From positions 310,001 to 374,000 of the forward strand of contig NZ_JAAWWK010000003.1 in the NCBI RefSeq assembly GCF_012272835.1: DNA of 64,000 bases. Direction: 5' to 3'. Below are positions 23,625-60,866 of this stretch, piece by piece. A model generated the notes under the pieces. It did no database searches and was not told the DNA's origin. It worked only from the letters and a program-made list of their open reading frames with translations. The position numbers were made by a program, and so were the translations under genes. How positions within the stretch are numbered: position 1 is the stretch's first letter; every line of letters begins with the position of its first letter. The DNA comes from Spongiibacter thalassae (GTDB taxonomy: Bacteria > Pseudomonadota > Gammaproteobacteria > Pseudomonadales > Spongiibacteraceae).

Positions 23625-23681
23625 TCTGCCAAACACAACTTATTTACTTACTCGATGCCGACGGATCAACAAGGATTTACC

Positions 23682-25499
23682 ATGACGACGCCAACGCCTA
23701 AACCTGTACTGATCACGGATGTAACCCTGCGCGACGGACACCAGTCACTGATCGCCACACGACTGCGTACCGAAGACATGCTGCCGCTTTGTTCGGAGTT
23801 GGACGCGGTGGGGTTTTGGTCACTGGAAGTGTGGGGCGGCGCCACCTTCGATGCCTGTGTCCGTTTTCTGAAGGAAGACCCCTGGGAGCGACTCCGGCAA
23901 CTCCGCGCAGCCCTGCCCAATACCCCATTGCAAATGCTGCTGCGTGGTCAGAATCTGCTCGGTTACCGGCACTACGCCGACGATGTGGTCGAGGCCTTTG
24001 TTGAGAAGTCGGCAGAATACGGCATGGATATATTCCGTGTCTTCGATGCCATGAACGATGTGCGCAATTTGCAAACGGCCATCGCGGCGGTGAAAAAAGC
24101 AGGAAAGCACGCACAGGGCACCATTTGCTACACGACCAGCCCGGTGCACAACACTGAAGTCTTCGTGCAGCAGGCACGGGATATGGTGAATATGGGTATC
24201 GACTCCATCGCCATCAAGGATATGGCCGGCTTGCTAACGCCCACGGCGACCGCAGAACTGGTGTCAGCCCTAAAGGCGGAATTCGATATTCCCCTGGCCT
24301 TGCACTCACATATGACATCGGGCCTGGCGGGTTTGTGTCAACTTAAGGCGGTGGAAGCCGGTGTGGATATTATCGATACCGCGATGTCGGCGTTTGCCAA
24401 CGGCACCAGCCATCCGGCGACGGAAACCATGGTTGCAGGATTCAAGGGCACCGCCCATGACACTGGTCTGGACTTGCCCGCCTTGCAGGAGATCGCGAAA
24501 AAGCTGTGGGCCGTGCGTAAAAAATACCACCAGTTTGAAAGCGAATTCACCCGCGAAGATGTCAGCGTACAGATCAATCAAGTGCCCGGCGGGATGATGT
24601 CAAACCTCGCCAATCAGTTGAAAGAGCAGGGCGCTCTGGGGCGAATTGGCGAGGTGTTCAACGAAATACCCCGTGTACGGCAAGACCTGGGCTACCCGCC
24701 GCTGGTCACCCCGACCTCACAAATTGTCGGCACCCAGGCGGTAATGAATATTCTCGCCGACAAGCGCTATACCACCATCACCAATGAAGTGAAGCGTTAT
24801 CTTCAAGGTCATTACGGGGCGGCTCTGGGCAAGGTCAATGAAGAACTGCGGGCAAAGGCCATCGGCAACGAAACCTTGATCGATGTGCGTCCCGCCGACT
24901 TGCTTCCCGCTGAAATGGGCAGGTTGCGCGCTGAAATAGGCGACCTGGCTGAGCAGGATCACGACGTCCTCACCTATGCCATGTTCCCGGATATAGGTCG
25001 CAGCTTTCTCCAGCAGCGCCGCGATGGCAGTTTGCAGCCGGAAGAACTGGAAGCCGCAGGCGCCGGCAGCCGCCCTGTAAGTGAGGGAGGGGTGCCGACT
25101 GAATTTGTTATCGATGTGCACGGCGAAAGCTATCAGGTAGCAATAACCGGTGTTGGGATTAAAGGAAAGGGTAAACGACACGTTTACATGACCCTGGATG
25201 GCATGCCCGAGGAGGTGGTATTTGAAGCCCTGAATGAATTCCAGTCCGGCGGTGGCAGTGGTCGCAAGCAGGCCAACAAGCCGGGGCATGTCACTACAAA
25301 TATGCCGGGCAATATTGTCGAGGTACTTGTGGCTCAGGGCGACGCGGTGACAGCCGGGCAGCCCGTACTGGTGACCGAAGCAATGAAGATGGAAGCCGAG
25401 GTACAAGCACCTGTTTCCGGCACCGTCACCGATATCCATGTCAGCAAAGGGGACAGGGTAACCCCAGGTGAGGTACTAATTGAAATAGATGAAGTCTAG
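23682..25499 (+). CDS. pycB: Pyruvate carboxylase subunit B / oxaloacetate decarboxylase alpha type
   Basis: Transfers CO2 from carboxybiotin to pyruvate. 605 residues: HMGL-like carboxyltransferase barrel (about 8-270, starting TDVTLRDGHQSL, with metal and Lys motif AIKDMAGLL), a conserved carboxylase domain (about 295-460), an Ala/Gly-rich linker and a biotinyl domain whose EAMKMEAE holds the biotin attachment Lys569. ATG 23682 has AAGGA 6 bases upstream; an ATG 27 bases earlier is less likely. It makes a two-subunit alpha4beta4-type enzyme with PycA, as in Pseudomonas. No oadB/oadG sodium-pump genes are nearby, which argues against oxaloacetate decarboxylase. Confidence 0.92.
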   Translation: MTTPTPKPVLITDVTLRDGHQSLIATRLRTEDMLPLCSELDAVGFWSLEVWGGATFDACVRFLKEDPWERLRQLRAALPNTPLQMLLRGQNLLGYRHYADDVVEAFVEKSAEYGMDIFRVFDAMNDVRNLQTAIAAVKKAGKHAQGTICYTTSPVHNTEVFVQQARDMVNMGIDSIAIKDMAGLLTPTATAELVSALKAEFDIPLALHSHMTSGLAGLCQLKAVEAGVDIIDTAMSAFANGTSHPATETMVAGFKGTAHDTGLDLPALQEIAKKLWAVRKKYHQFESEFTREDVSVQINQVPGGMMSNLANQLKEQGALGRIGEVFNEIPRVRQDLGYPPLVTPTSQIVGTQAVMNILADKRYTTITNEVKRYLQGHYGAALGKVNEELRAKAIGNETLIDVRPADLLPAEMGRLRAEIGDLAEQDHDVLTYAMFPDIGRSFLQQRRDGSLQPEELEAAGAGSRPVSEGGVPTEFVIDVHGESYQVAITGVGIKGKGKRHVYMTLDGMPEEVVFEALNEFQSGGGSGRKQANKPGHVTTNMPGNIVEVLVAQGDAVTAGQPVLVTEAMKMEAEVQAPVSGTVTDIHVSKGDRVTPGEVLIEIDEV

Positions 25500-25507
25500 A
25501 AAAGAGC

Positions 25508-25536
25508 TTGCACTTGATAATGAGAATGATTACTAT
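25508..25536 (+). promoter_or_regulatory. Fur box overlapping a sigma-70 promoter
   Basis: TTGCAC (25508-25513) and TACTAT (25531-25536) are separated by exactly 17 bases and form a plausible -35/-10 pair. The 19-base stretch 25516-25534 matches the classical Fur consensus (GATAATGATAATCATTATC) at 15 of 19 positions by my count and fills the spacer and -10 region, the arrangement expected for Fur repression. The only gene-like element directly downstream is the short structured transcript ending at 25646. Confidence 0.72.
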
Positions 25537-25542
25537 TTGCTT

Positions 25543-25646
25543 CAAGTTGCAGGGGCGGATGGCAGCCCCCTCTCTCTGACGTGTCTGCCCGCTGCAACTT
25601 ATCTCTCCGTATTAGCCCCGGTGCATGATTGCGCCGGGGTTTTTTT
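25543..25646 (+). ncRNA. Candidate iron-responsive small RNA (RyhB/PrrF-like role)
   Basis: Predicted transcript of about 104 nt, from 7 bases after the -10 to the end of the terminator T-run. It opens with a stem of 16 base pairs and one bulge: 25544-25552 pairs with 25592-25600, and 25553-25559 pairs with 25584-25590. The loop 25560-25583 and the linker 25601-25614 carry exposed pyrimidine tracts (CCCCCUCUCUCUG and AUCUCUCC) that could pair with Shine-Dalgarno sequences. An intrinsic terminator follows. There is no credible start codon and ORF inside. Fur-repressed sRNAs of about this size (RyhB, PrrF, NrrF) shut down iron-using genes in low iron; I do not recognise sequence identity to any of them, so this is a role analogy. 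Confidence 0.62.
25616..25646 (+). terminator. Intrinsic terminator of sRNA candidate / pycAB
   Basis: A 9-base-pair GC-rich stem (25616-25624 with 25631-25639, one G-U pair) and a 6-base loop are followed by seven T (25640-25646). It would end the sRNA and also any read-through from pycB, 120 bases upstream. Confidence 0.88.
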
Positions 25647-25718
25647 ATGGCCAGCGCAAGAGATTCCCGCGTGAAGCGGCCTCTTTTGCACGCGAGGAGT
25701 GCGGGAATAAACAGAAAG

Positions 25719-25795
25719 TGGTGCCCCGGACAGGATTCGAACCTGTGACCTGCCCCTTAGGAGGGGGCCGCGCTATCCAGCTGTGCCACCGGGGC
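25719..25795 (-). tRNA. tRNA-Arg (anticodon CCU)
   Basis: 77 bases including an encoded 3' CCA. All four stems fold: acceptor GCCCCGG/CCGGGGC, anticodon stem GCCCC/GGGGC with loop CUCCUAA, so the anticodon is CCU (reads AGG), and the T-arm with GTTCGAATC. It follows gpt on the same strand but has its own promoter-like sequence upstream. Confidence 0.96.
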
Positions 25796-58566: not shown

Positions 58567-60866
58567 AAAAAACGGCGGTCTCTTTAATTTCGCGGCTATC
58601 TATGTGTTTAGCCATGCTAGCCATAGTGCAGCCCCTTTGGGCTACTGCCGCGGTGGAAGCAGACAGCACTGCGGAATTGATGCTGGAAAGTGAGGCATGG
58701 TTGTTGGAGTCCGAGCCAGCACCAGAGTTCCGCGACTATCAGCTGAAATTGCAGGAGTTGGGTTACCCCAATTCGGCCAAGTTGCGCGGTAGCGAAAGCA
58801 GCGTTTACATGAACTTCGGCTCGCGACTCGACGAAATCATTGTCGGGGGAGAACTTCGCTTCCACTACACCGTGTCTCCAGCGCTGATGGCGAAGTTTTC
58901 CCACCTTAAGGTTTACCTTAACGAAGAAATTATGGGGGTGATCCCCATCACCGACGAAGCGCGAATCAGGCAGTATGCCAGCGTGCAACTCGACCCCAAA
59001 TACTTTGCCGATTACAACCAGTTGCGAGTTGAGCTTATTGGTCATTTAGACAAAGAGTGCTGGAGCCCCGATGACTACAGCATCTGGACCGAGGTCAGCG
59101 GCTCAACAGAAATACGCCTCCGTGCTGAGCCACTGCGGGTAGCTAATGACCTGAGTCTTATACCAGCGCCATTTTTTGACAAACGGGATTTTCGCCGTTT
59201 AACACTGCCTGTCGTATTGCCGTCAAACTACAGCCTTGAAAAGGTGCGTGCTGCCGGCGTAACCACGTCGTGGTTCGGTTCGTTGGCCCGCTGGCGTGGT
59301 GCCAGTTTCCCTCTGTCGATCAATGAGCTGCCCGACGATCACGCAATTGTGTTCATGACCAACGACGCACGCCCGAAAATTTTTGAAGATTTCCCACCCG
59401 TTGATGCGCCGACATTGCAGATGATAGACCACCCCACCAAGGTCGCTGCCAAATTGCTGCTGATACAGGGTCGAAACGACGAAGAGCTTAATCAGGCGGT
59501 TCGCGGTCTGGTATTGGGCACAGCGTTGCTGTCCGGTCCTGTGGCCGTGGTGAATCGCGCCGAGCAAGTCAAGCCCCGTGAACCCTATGATGCTCCGCAT
59601 TGGCTACCTACCGATCGCGCGGTTCATATCGGTGAACTGGTCGATGACCCTGCCCAACTTCAGGTAGTGGGGCGCACGCCACCACCAATCAAGGTCAGCT
59701 TTCAATTACCGCCCGATTTGTTTACCTGGCGTAGTCGTGGTATTCCGCTGAAACTGGACTACCGCTATTCACCACTGACCTATGAAGGCACTGGGTCGAT
59801 GATGAGTATGAGTATCAACGACCAGTTCGTAGAAGGCTTTAACCTTACCGACAACGGCTTTTCCGGTACGGATAACCGCGTTCGTGTACCGTTGATTAAC
59901 GACTCGTTCATTTCTGTAAGCGAGCGTTTGAAAGTTCCTGCATTTAAAGTCGGCAGCCAGAACCAGATGGTGTTCCAGTTTGACTTTGCCGGTGTGGCCA
60001 GTGGCGCCTGTAAAACTGTGTCGCCAGGCCGTCGTTACGCCGCAATAGATGCCGACTCTACACTGGACTTTACCGGCTTGCCGCATTATATCGAGATGCC
60101 CAACCTGCGAGCATTTGTGAACGCTGGCTTCCCATTCACTCGAATGGCCGACTTGTCTGAAACCGCCGTATTGATCCCACAGAATGCGCCCAAAGAAGTG
60201 CTGGAAACGTTCTTCCAGTTGATGGGAGCTGCGGGTGCCAGCTCGGGTTTCCCGGCAATCAGTGTAAGCCTGTTCGACAAGTGGGATAAAGAGCAGCTCA
60301 AATTGCGTGAGAGCGACATTCTAAGCATCGCCATCAACCCGAAAATGAGTGGCCTTAAGGAAAAGCAAATCCCGCTGATCTTCGACGACGCCCGCCGAGC
60401 CATAGAGTTGCCTATACGCAATATTGAACCGGGCAATGAAGTCTGGGGCGGAGCTGTACCTGAGTTGGCAGAAAGCGCAGAGAACGTCGAAATCACCAGT
60501 TCTGGCGGGTTCGCTGCGGTGGTCGGTTTGCAATCACCTTACAATAGCTCGCGTAGCGTAGTATCGGTGATGGCGACCAAGCCCGCTGATTTCAAAATGG
60601 TGCAAGAGGCTTTAAATGACTCAGGCCGGATTAACTATATGTTCGGCTCGGTGGTCACTTTCCGCGGCGACCAGCAAACCAGCTACAACGTTGGCGACAA
60701 GTACTTTGTCGGTGCTCTGCCACTTTGGGATCTGATCTGGTTCCACTTCTCTCGCTACCCTCTATTACTCGGCTTCCTCAGTGTACTGGTAGTGCTTCTG
60801 TTGGCGGTCTTCCTACGTCGGGTACTGGGTGCAATGGCGGCAAAACGTCTGCGCGGGGGTAAATAA
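58563..60866 (+). CDS. bcsB: Cellulose synthase periplasmic subunit BcsB
   Basis: 767-residue periplasmic partner of BcsA: signal peptide (1-30, ending ATAA), paired carbohydrate-binding and flavodoxin-like domains (about 60-690), and a C-terminal membrane anchor (about 728-752) with a basic tail (RLRGGK). Length and layout match E. coli BcsB (779). It is needed for BcsA activity. The start overlaps bcsA (ATGA type) and bcsZ begins on the next base after its stop, so bcsABZC are tightly coupled. Confidence 0.95.
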   Translation: MKKTAVSLISRLSMCLAMLAIVQPLWATAAVEADSTAELMLESEAWLLESEPAPEFRDYQLKLQELGYPNSAKLRGSESSVYMNFGSRLDEIIVGGELRFHYTVSPALMAKFSHLKVYLNEEIMGVIPITDEARIRQYASVQLDPKYFADYNQLRVELIGHLDKECWSPDDYSIWTEVSGSTEIRLRAEPLRVANDLSLIPAPFFDKRDFRRLTLPVVLPSNYSLEKVRAAGVTTSWFGSLARWRGASFPLSINELPDDHAIVFMTNDARPKIFEDFPPVDAPTLQMIDHPTKVAAKLLLIQGRNDEELNQAVRGLVLGTALLSGPVAVVNRAEQVKPREPYDAPHWLPTDRAVHIGELVDDPAQLQVVGRTPPPIKVSFQLPPDLFTWRSRGIPLKLDYRYSPLTYEGTGSMMSMSINDQFVEGFNLTDNGFSGTDNRVRVPLINDSFISVSERLKVPAFKVGSQNQMVFQFDFAGVASGACKTVSPGRRYAAIDADSTLDFTGLPHYIEMPNLRAFVNAGFPFTRMADLSETAVLIPQNAPKEVLETFFQLMGAAGASSGFPAISVSLFDKWDKEQLKLRESDILSIAINPKMSGLKEKQIPLIFDDARRAIELPIRNIEPGNEVWGGAVPELAESAENVEITSSGGFAAVVGLQSPYNSSRSVVSVMATKPADFKMVQEALNDSGRINYMFGSVVTFRGDQQTSYNVGDKYFVGALPLWDLIWFHFSRYPLLLGFLSVLVVLLLAVFLRRVLGAMAAKRLRGGK

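Follow-up and report, generated by a model that had tools for sequence, protein, structure and literature searches.

The window, i.e., the 64,000-nucleotide stretch of Spongiibacter thalassae DNA analyzed here (genome size 4.4 Mb), carries between positions 25508 and 25646 a short element made up of a promoter with a Fur box in its spacer, followed by a predicted RNA of ca. 104 nt with two hairpins. The promoter begins 9 bases after the stop of pycB at 25499. Relatives of pycB are present in 21 of 21 family genomes, and protein relatives at 81-84% identity occur in Spongiibacter pelagi, Neomelitea salexigens and Zhongshania species. The features of the locus are as follows.

23655..25499, plus strand: pycB, pyruvate carboxylase subunit B (named as in the earlier note), an ORF of 614 aa and the conserved upstream neighbor
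25508..25513, plus strand: -35 element TTGCAC, read from the sequence
25516..25534, plus strand: Fur box GATAATGAGAATGATTACT, 15/19 against the consensus, situated in the spacer and extending into the -10 element
25531..25536, plus strand: -10 element TACTAT, read from the sequence
25543..25646, plus strand: predicted small RNA of ca. 104 nt, its 5' end deduced from the position of the -10 element
25544..25600, plus strand: 5' hairpin with a divergent, covarying stem (helices 1 and 2)
25566..25570, plus strand: CCCCC in the apical loop (a run of at least 5 C is unpaired in the MFE fold of all 13 intact members)
25602..25608, plus strand: UCUCUCC linker, the proposed seed, found in every one of the 13 members and unchanged throughout the 11-sequence alignment
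25614..25646, plus strand: intrinsic terminator and U-tract (12-pair stem at 25614-25641, 4-base loop, T-run)
25719-25795, opposite strand: tRNA-Arg, the next gene found downstream of the element

An earlier note on this DNA had described a sigma-70 promoter filled by a 15/19 Fur consensus match. The match is indeed found within the promoter spacer (scored against what we take to be the Fur-box consensus) and the 17-base spacing is also there, but the hexamers are weak, with 7 of 12 positions identical to the sigma-70 consensus, and the promoter was not listed by a scan that requires 9 consensus positions. A putative Fur box thus sits at the RNA's own promoter, where Fur binding is predicted. 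A second 15/19 match to the Fur consensus lies in the window at 59798-59816. As a match of this quality appeared 8 times in 60 simulated first-order 64-kb sequences (0.13 each) and the hexamers are weak, the window by itself would leave the case undecided; what places the element beyond chance is that 13 of 18 genomes of the genus keep the Fur box, the promoter, both hairpins and the linker.

The window RNA folds with an MFE of -52.5 kcal/mol (z -5.94, 200 dinucleotide shuffles), and single-sequence folds of all 13 members give z-scores of -3.9 to -7.7 (100 shuffles each). Its 5' hairpin has the long stem that had been announced, although with 17 outer pairs and one bulge in the MFE fold instead of 16 bp, and the strong terminator was recovered as described, with its 12-pair stem and T-run. 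Two pyrimidine tracts had been proposed as exposed seeds: in the window MFE fold neither the CUCUCU tract of the loop nor the UCUCUCC linker is paired, but only the linker is an invariant seed, the loop tract being found in some Spongiibacter-type members. These members (n = 7) have UCUCUCCGUAUU, while the Zhongshania-type members (n = 6) have GAUUCUCUCC[G/A]AUUU and a CCCCCAUUU loop, keeping the C-run without the CUCUCU tract; UCUCUCC is the part constant across both sequence classes. The CUCUCC of the linker is unpaired in the MFE fold of 12 of 13 members and partly paired in G006, and the probability that all six bases are open varies between 0.29 (G006) and 0.99 (G000), with 0.50 in G012 and G013. 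A discrete non-coding RNA with an intrinsic terminator and conserved structure is predicted.

The statement that no ORF lies between promoter and terminator does not hold literally, as a 61-aa mechanical ORF (25489-25674) spans the element. We rejected a coding role for it because the spacing between conserved blocks shifts the frame among relatives, and in this sense the element does not look coding. The apical region of the S. thalassae copy (window 25559-25579) also contains a tiny ATG...TGA ORF that by eye has 6-7 codons in G000, G006, G012 and G013, is longer in G011 and G014 and lacks an ATG in G003 (all Spongiibacter-type members); it is probably incidental.

The comparison covered 18 genomes of the genus-level group (Spongiibacter/Zhongshania) and three of a second genus of the family. 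RNAalifold on a plain MAFFT alignment of 11 copies yielded no useful 5' structure owing to the divergence of the stems, and covariance models were therefore seeded from three well-aligning sequences and then extended. Model R1 was built on three genomes other than the window genome and matched the window copy with 54.7 bits; model R2 was built from 11 members, the window copy among them, which it matched at 25539-25646 with 80.6 bits. Intact copies occur in 13 of the 18 genomes (G000, G002, G003, G004, G006, G007, G008, G011, G012, G013, G014, G016 and G017), those of G004 and G007 having been found by R2. All 13 retain TTGNNN-N17-TANNNT with a Fur box of 14-16/19 inside the 17-base spacer, and 11 are located directly after pycB, the copies of G004 and G007 lying ca. 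1.95 kb from it. The R2 search also recovered decayed copies without a Fur box (scores of 10-11/19) in G005 and G010, and no convincing copy in G001, G009, G015 or the second genus: the best matches in G009, G015, G018 and G020 reach at most 26.6 bits and have no Fur box, and G001 and G019 gave none. In Spongiibacter pelagi (L034, L053), both the RNA and the sdhC GGAGAG described below are absent; two short ORFs follow pycB there, by eye a vapBC-like toxin-antitoxin pair.

The first extension comprised 14 matches (including a second, opposite-strand match in L033, the relic in L037 and the window copy twice), and the final covariation count uses 11 rows, one per genome. In this alignment, which was fitted to the model and hence favors structure, two-sided changes are seen at 25 of 33 pairs, a value reached in 1 of 500 shuffles; with three sequences aligned without structure, 10 of the 33 pairs are already two-sided. 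Helices 1 and 2 of the 5' hairpin account for 18 of 22 pairs (11 sequences) and the terminator for 7 of 11 modeled pairs. Paired cells amount to 90.9%, as opposed to 64.0% in shuffles and 39-53% with partners slid, and the covariation score was attained by none of 500 shuffles. Relatives thus keep the Fur box, the terminator and the stem, the latter with compensatory changes, which is the check that the earlier note had proposed, and the comparison gives strong support to the prediction of a lineage-specific sRNA gene with a Fur box.

Beyond the genus, searches of the order and class, both of limited sensitivity, returned no convincing copy of the RNA. The order search with R1 gave matches in 53 of 293 genomes (E <= 0.1), seven of them in the genus, and, of the eight known members that it covered, failed to find G016 and G017, both Zhongshania type, which makes it weak for this type; the class search with R2 gave matches in 43 of 369 genomes (E <= 0.001), the window genome included. 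Among the 53 stronger non-genus places, which were read, the best Fur match is 13/19 and the others at most 11, and many are by eye barely more than terminators; three of the places (L178, L179 and L193) are at contig ends with fewer than 75 bases upstream. The neighborhoods of pycB at 75 non-genus loci contributed two weak matches (22.3 and 16.5 bits), by eye a far-end inverted repeat and a terminator. Two loci of genus g3, L139 (1501-1592, G021) and L152 (G100), show a linker-like UAUCUCCGCAUU before the terminator and Fur matches of 9/19 and 11/19, i.e., no Fur box, and may possibly be a distant or convergent sRNA. Six class-level loci (L181, L182, L184, L187, L198 and L204) carry short hairpins with C-rich loops just ahead of a C-rich terminator stem, again with no Fur box; they resemble other small RNAs of the C-rich-loop kind. 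At the gathering threshold, Rfam reports only a tRNA in the window, and likewise only a tRNA in 15 loci (the 13 intact members and two relics). The RyhB model has no match at E <= 10, and PrrF (RF00444) reaches 19.0 bits where its gathering score is 90, so that the RNA is assigned to neither family, in agreement with the earlier claim that it has no sequence identity to known iron sRNAs.

Based on these features, we consider it likely that the element encodes a Fur-repressed, RyhB-like, iron-sparing sRNA that acts in trans and is unrelated in sequence to the known ones. This is the architecture that had been proposed, and it finds support in the conserved Fur box, terminator and stem as well as in complementarity to sodB and sdhC, both classical targets of iron-sparing sRNAs, but not to acnB. 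As the seed matches the mRNAs of two respiratory/antioxidant enzymes, the sRNA would probably save iron when it is scarce. Three candidate targets (sodB, sdhC and acnB) were examined, with the region upstream of pycB as a control, and acnB was discarded, as it has no conserved complement across genomes. What the sequence comparison shows is a conserved promoter containing the Fur box, the RNA structure with its open linker, and sites in the targets that match this linker; it gives fair support to sodB and sdhC as candidate targets.

The gene that we presume from its resemblance to be sodB encodes a protein with Pfam Sod_Fe_C, putatively an iron enzyme. Its Shine-Dalgarno sequence is AGGAGAGA in all 12 sRNA-bearing genomes where the gene was found (none in the incomplete G002), and in each of them the linker is complementary to it over 7-11 nt. 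Contiguous Watson-Crick pairing between a genome's own linker and sodB extends over 7-9 nt in the Spongiibacter type (7 bases in the window genome, not significant alone) and 10-11 nt in the Zhongshania type, compared with 7 nt throughout for cross-class pairs; these two classes with differing sodB pairing offer a comparative handle. Within the Spongiibacter type, pairing with the sodB of relatives spans 7-13 nt, and thus there is no genome-by-genome fit. Ten Zhongshania-type genomes (six with the sRNA, four without) contain GGAGAGAATC exactly at 45 sites, of which six are the complements within the RNA genes themselves; 43 were read, and the remaining two are at RNA genes. The only gene with GGAGAGAATC before its start in five of the six sRNA-bearing genomes is sodB, while at ilvC (named by eye) the site occurs in two of the six and in three without the sRNA. 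Presence of the sodB site is, however, not tied to that of the RNA, since the four sRNA-less Zhongshania-type genomes (G001, G005, G010 and G015) all keep the whole of GGAGAGAATC there; counting all five sRNA-less congeners, GGAGAGA persists in four and GGAGAG is lost only in G009.

The window genome contains 197 GGAGAG-N3-11-ATG sites as opposed to 85 for the reversed pattern, and of 30 sampled among the 197, 14 have a match of 7 or more bases to some part of the RNA. When compared with shuffled targets, duplex energies are mostly unremarkable and were given no weight as evidence; those of the window genome are ordinary relative to mononucleotide-shuffled targets (p = 0.18 for sodB, 0.32 for sdhC). 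One gene (L216, G000:C1:292174), by eye for a rubredoxin-like protein, has the Shine-Dalgarno sequence AAAGGAGAGA with a 7-base complement to the linker, and is a possible further iron-protein target, though such matches are common. It could be argued that the RNA, though a genuine Fur-regulated sRNA, acts mainly on other mRNAs, reached, e.g., via the C-run loop, and that it matches sodB and sdhC only incidentally, owing to their Shine-Dalgarno-like sequence: GGAGAG commonly serves as a Shine-Dalgarno sequence, 7-nt matches are frequent, sodB retains its site where the RNA is gone, and the C-run, for which no target was found, is conserved as well as the linker. We regard this as rather improbable, though the most serious of the alternatives, given that the sodB complement of the Zhongshania type exceeds the cross-class length and that the sdhC GGAGAG lies far from the start codon and is missing where the sRNA is missing.

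One GGAGAG is located 77-82 bases upstream of the sdhC GTG in all 13 sRNA-bearing genomes, this GTG being taken as the start (most genomes have an in-frame GTG 12 bases further upstream), and it is absent from the 200 bases examined in all five sRNA-less congeners. At its place, G001 and G010 have an inverted repeat with another loop, G005 has AGAGAA, and the divergence is greater in G015 and G009; nor is the sdhC GGAGAG present in G018 and G019, which belong to the second genus. In local 30-nt folds, the site forms a hairpin in 13 of 13 genomes with four to six of the six GGAGAG bases in the loop, and in folds of the whole 165 nt it remains in a hairpin loop in 11 (not in G003 and G011). Predicted pairing at this site reaches 6-7 Watson-Crick bases in the Spongiibacter type, 9 in G004 and G008, and 11-12 with G-U pairs in the Zhongshania type; the 6-base match of the window genome is not significant alone. 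When ancestry is ignored, the odds of a 13/13 versus 0/5 split are 1 in 8,568. On the best tree, with the sdhC states taken by hand, the correlation with the sRNA amounts to three changes within the genus, two of them on well-supported branches, i.e., two independent contrasts that point the same way, a number too small for a sign test. As two sRNA-less genomes keep relics, the three changes are read as losses. We postulate, at somewhat less than even confidence, that the sRNA and a dedicated receptor hairpin of sdhC (GGAGAG at ca. -80, outside the ribosome site) co-evolve, being lost jointly from leaders that are otherwise recognizable. The parallel absence of both in apparently three lineages makes for a ready comparative test of sRNA-target co-evolution, with the two sequence classes as the second handle.

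A GGA in a hairpin loop is also the signature of RsmA/CsrA sites, and some sdhC loops read AGGA. The sdhC hairpin might thus be a site of this type, absent together with the sRNA by coincidence, but we consider this very unlikely, as the full GGAGAG, beyond GGA, is kept in 13 of 13 genomes and gone from the five sRNA-less congeners, and the Zhongshania-type sites read TTGGA and not A-N-GGA. Least credible of all, and disfavored, is that the element is no regulator, but either the terminator or 3'UTR of pycAB, its spacer resembling a Fur box by chance, or else the cis leader of some gene further downstream: the promoter does begin just behind the pycB stop and the scan gave no other plus-strand terminator between, but 13 genomes retain the Fur box, spacing, linker and covarying hairpin, the RNA lies well away from pycB in G004 and G007, and the downstream sequence varies among genomes, the next gene in the window being an opposite-strand tRNA.

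For the Fur-repressed, iron-sparing sRNA, the following course of events can be envisaged. Iron-loaded Fur would repress the sRNA promoter; at low iron, Fur would leave the promoter spacer and the ca. 104-nt RNA would be made, ending at its own terminator. The open CUCUCC linker between the two hairpins could then pair with GGAGAG in iron-enzyme mRNAs, covering the Shine-Dalgarno sequence of sodB and so blocking its translation, and binding the small hairpin ca. 80 nt upstream of the sdhC start, by which sdh expression would be lowered. The lowering of the targets would probably involve Hfq, as is usual for iron-sparing sRNAs in proteobacteria; Hfq genes and Fur-family genes are each found in 20 of 21 family genomes. 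Action on sdhC could proceed by recruitment of Hfq or a nuclease or by blocking of a ribosome standby site, and Spot 42, acting on sdhC, is an earlier example of Hfq-mediated control at a distance from the start. From this arrangement of sites we infer that Fur binds, that expression depends on iron, that the targets are repressed, that Hfq is required and that pairing 80 nt upstream affects sdhC.

In the literature searched on sRNAs, iron or Fur in Spongiibacter, Spongiibacteraceae and Zhongshania, we found no description of this RNA, nor any sRNA study of this group. Among Firmicutes, the closest comparable systems are IsrR of Staphylococcus and FsrA of Bacillus. IsrR has Fur boxes, iron-enzyme targets, three stem-loops plus a terminator, and three C-rich regions that are single-stranded in loops or next to a stem (PMC9410917). 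It differs in belonging to Firmicutes and in that the invariant seed here is CUCUCC rather than a C-run.

With RyhB of enterobacteria and PrrF of Pseudomonas, the RNA shares a Fur box at the promoter and sodB and sdhC as candidate targets, and it differs in its two hairpins and short linker seed from what we take to be their layout. For both of them, a Fur box directly at the sRNA promoter is described, with sodB and sdhC as confirmed targets (PMC7377471). BrrF of Burkholderia cenocepacia is presented there as an analogue in function that is confined to its lineage, shows no sequence similarity to known Fur-regulated sRNAs and targets sdhC and sodB; it has no Fur box directly upstream and is probably controlled via co-expression with hemP (PMC7377471). 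The RNA described here is like BrrF in being lineage-specific, dissimilar to known Fur-regulated sRNAs and directed, by prediction, at sdhC and sodB, and unlike it in having a Fur box in its own promoter. Iron-sparing sRNAs seem to arise repeatedly with unrelated sequences, as noted for BrrF (PMC7377471), and if our reading is true, this RNA would be another one, in a marine gammaproteobacterial group.
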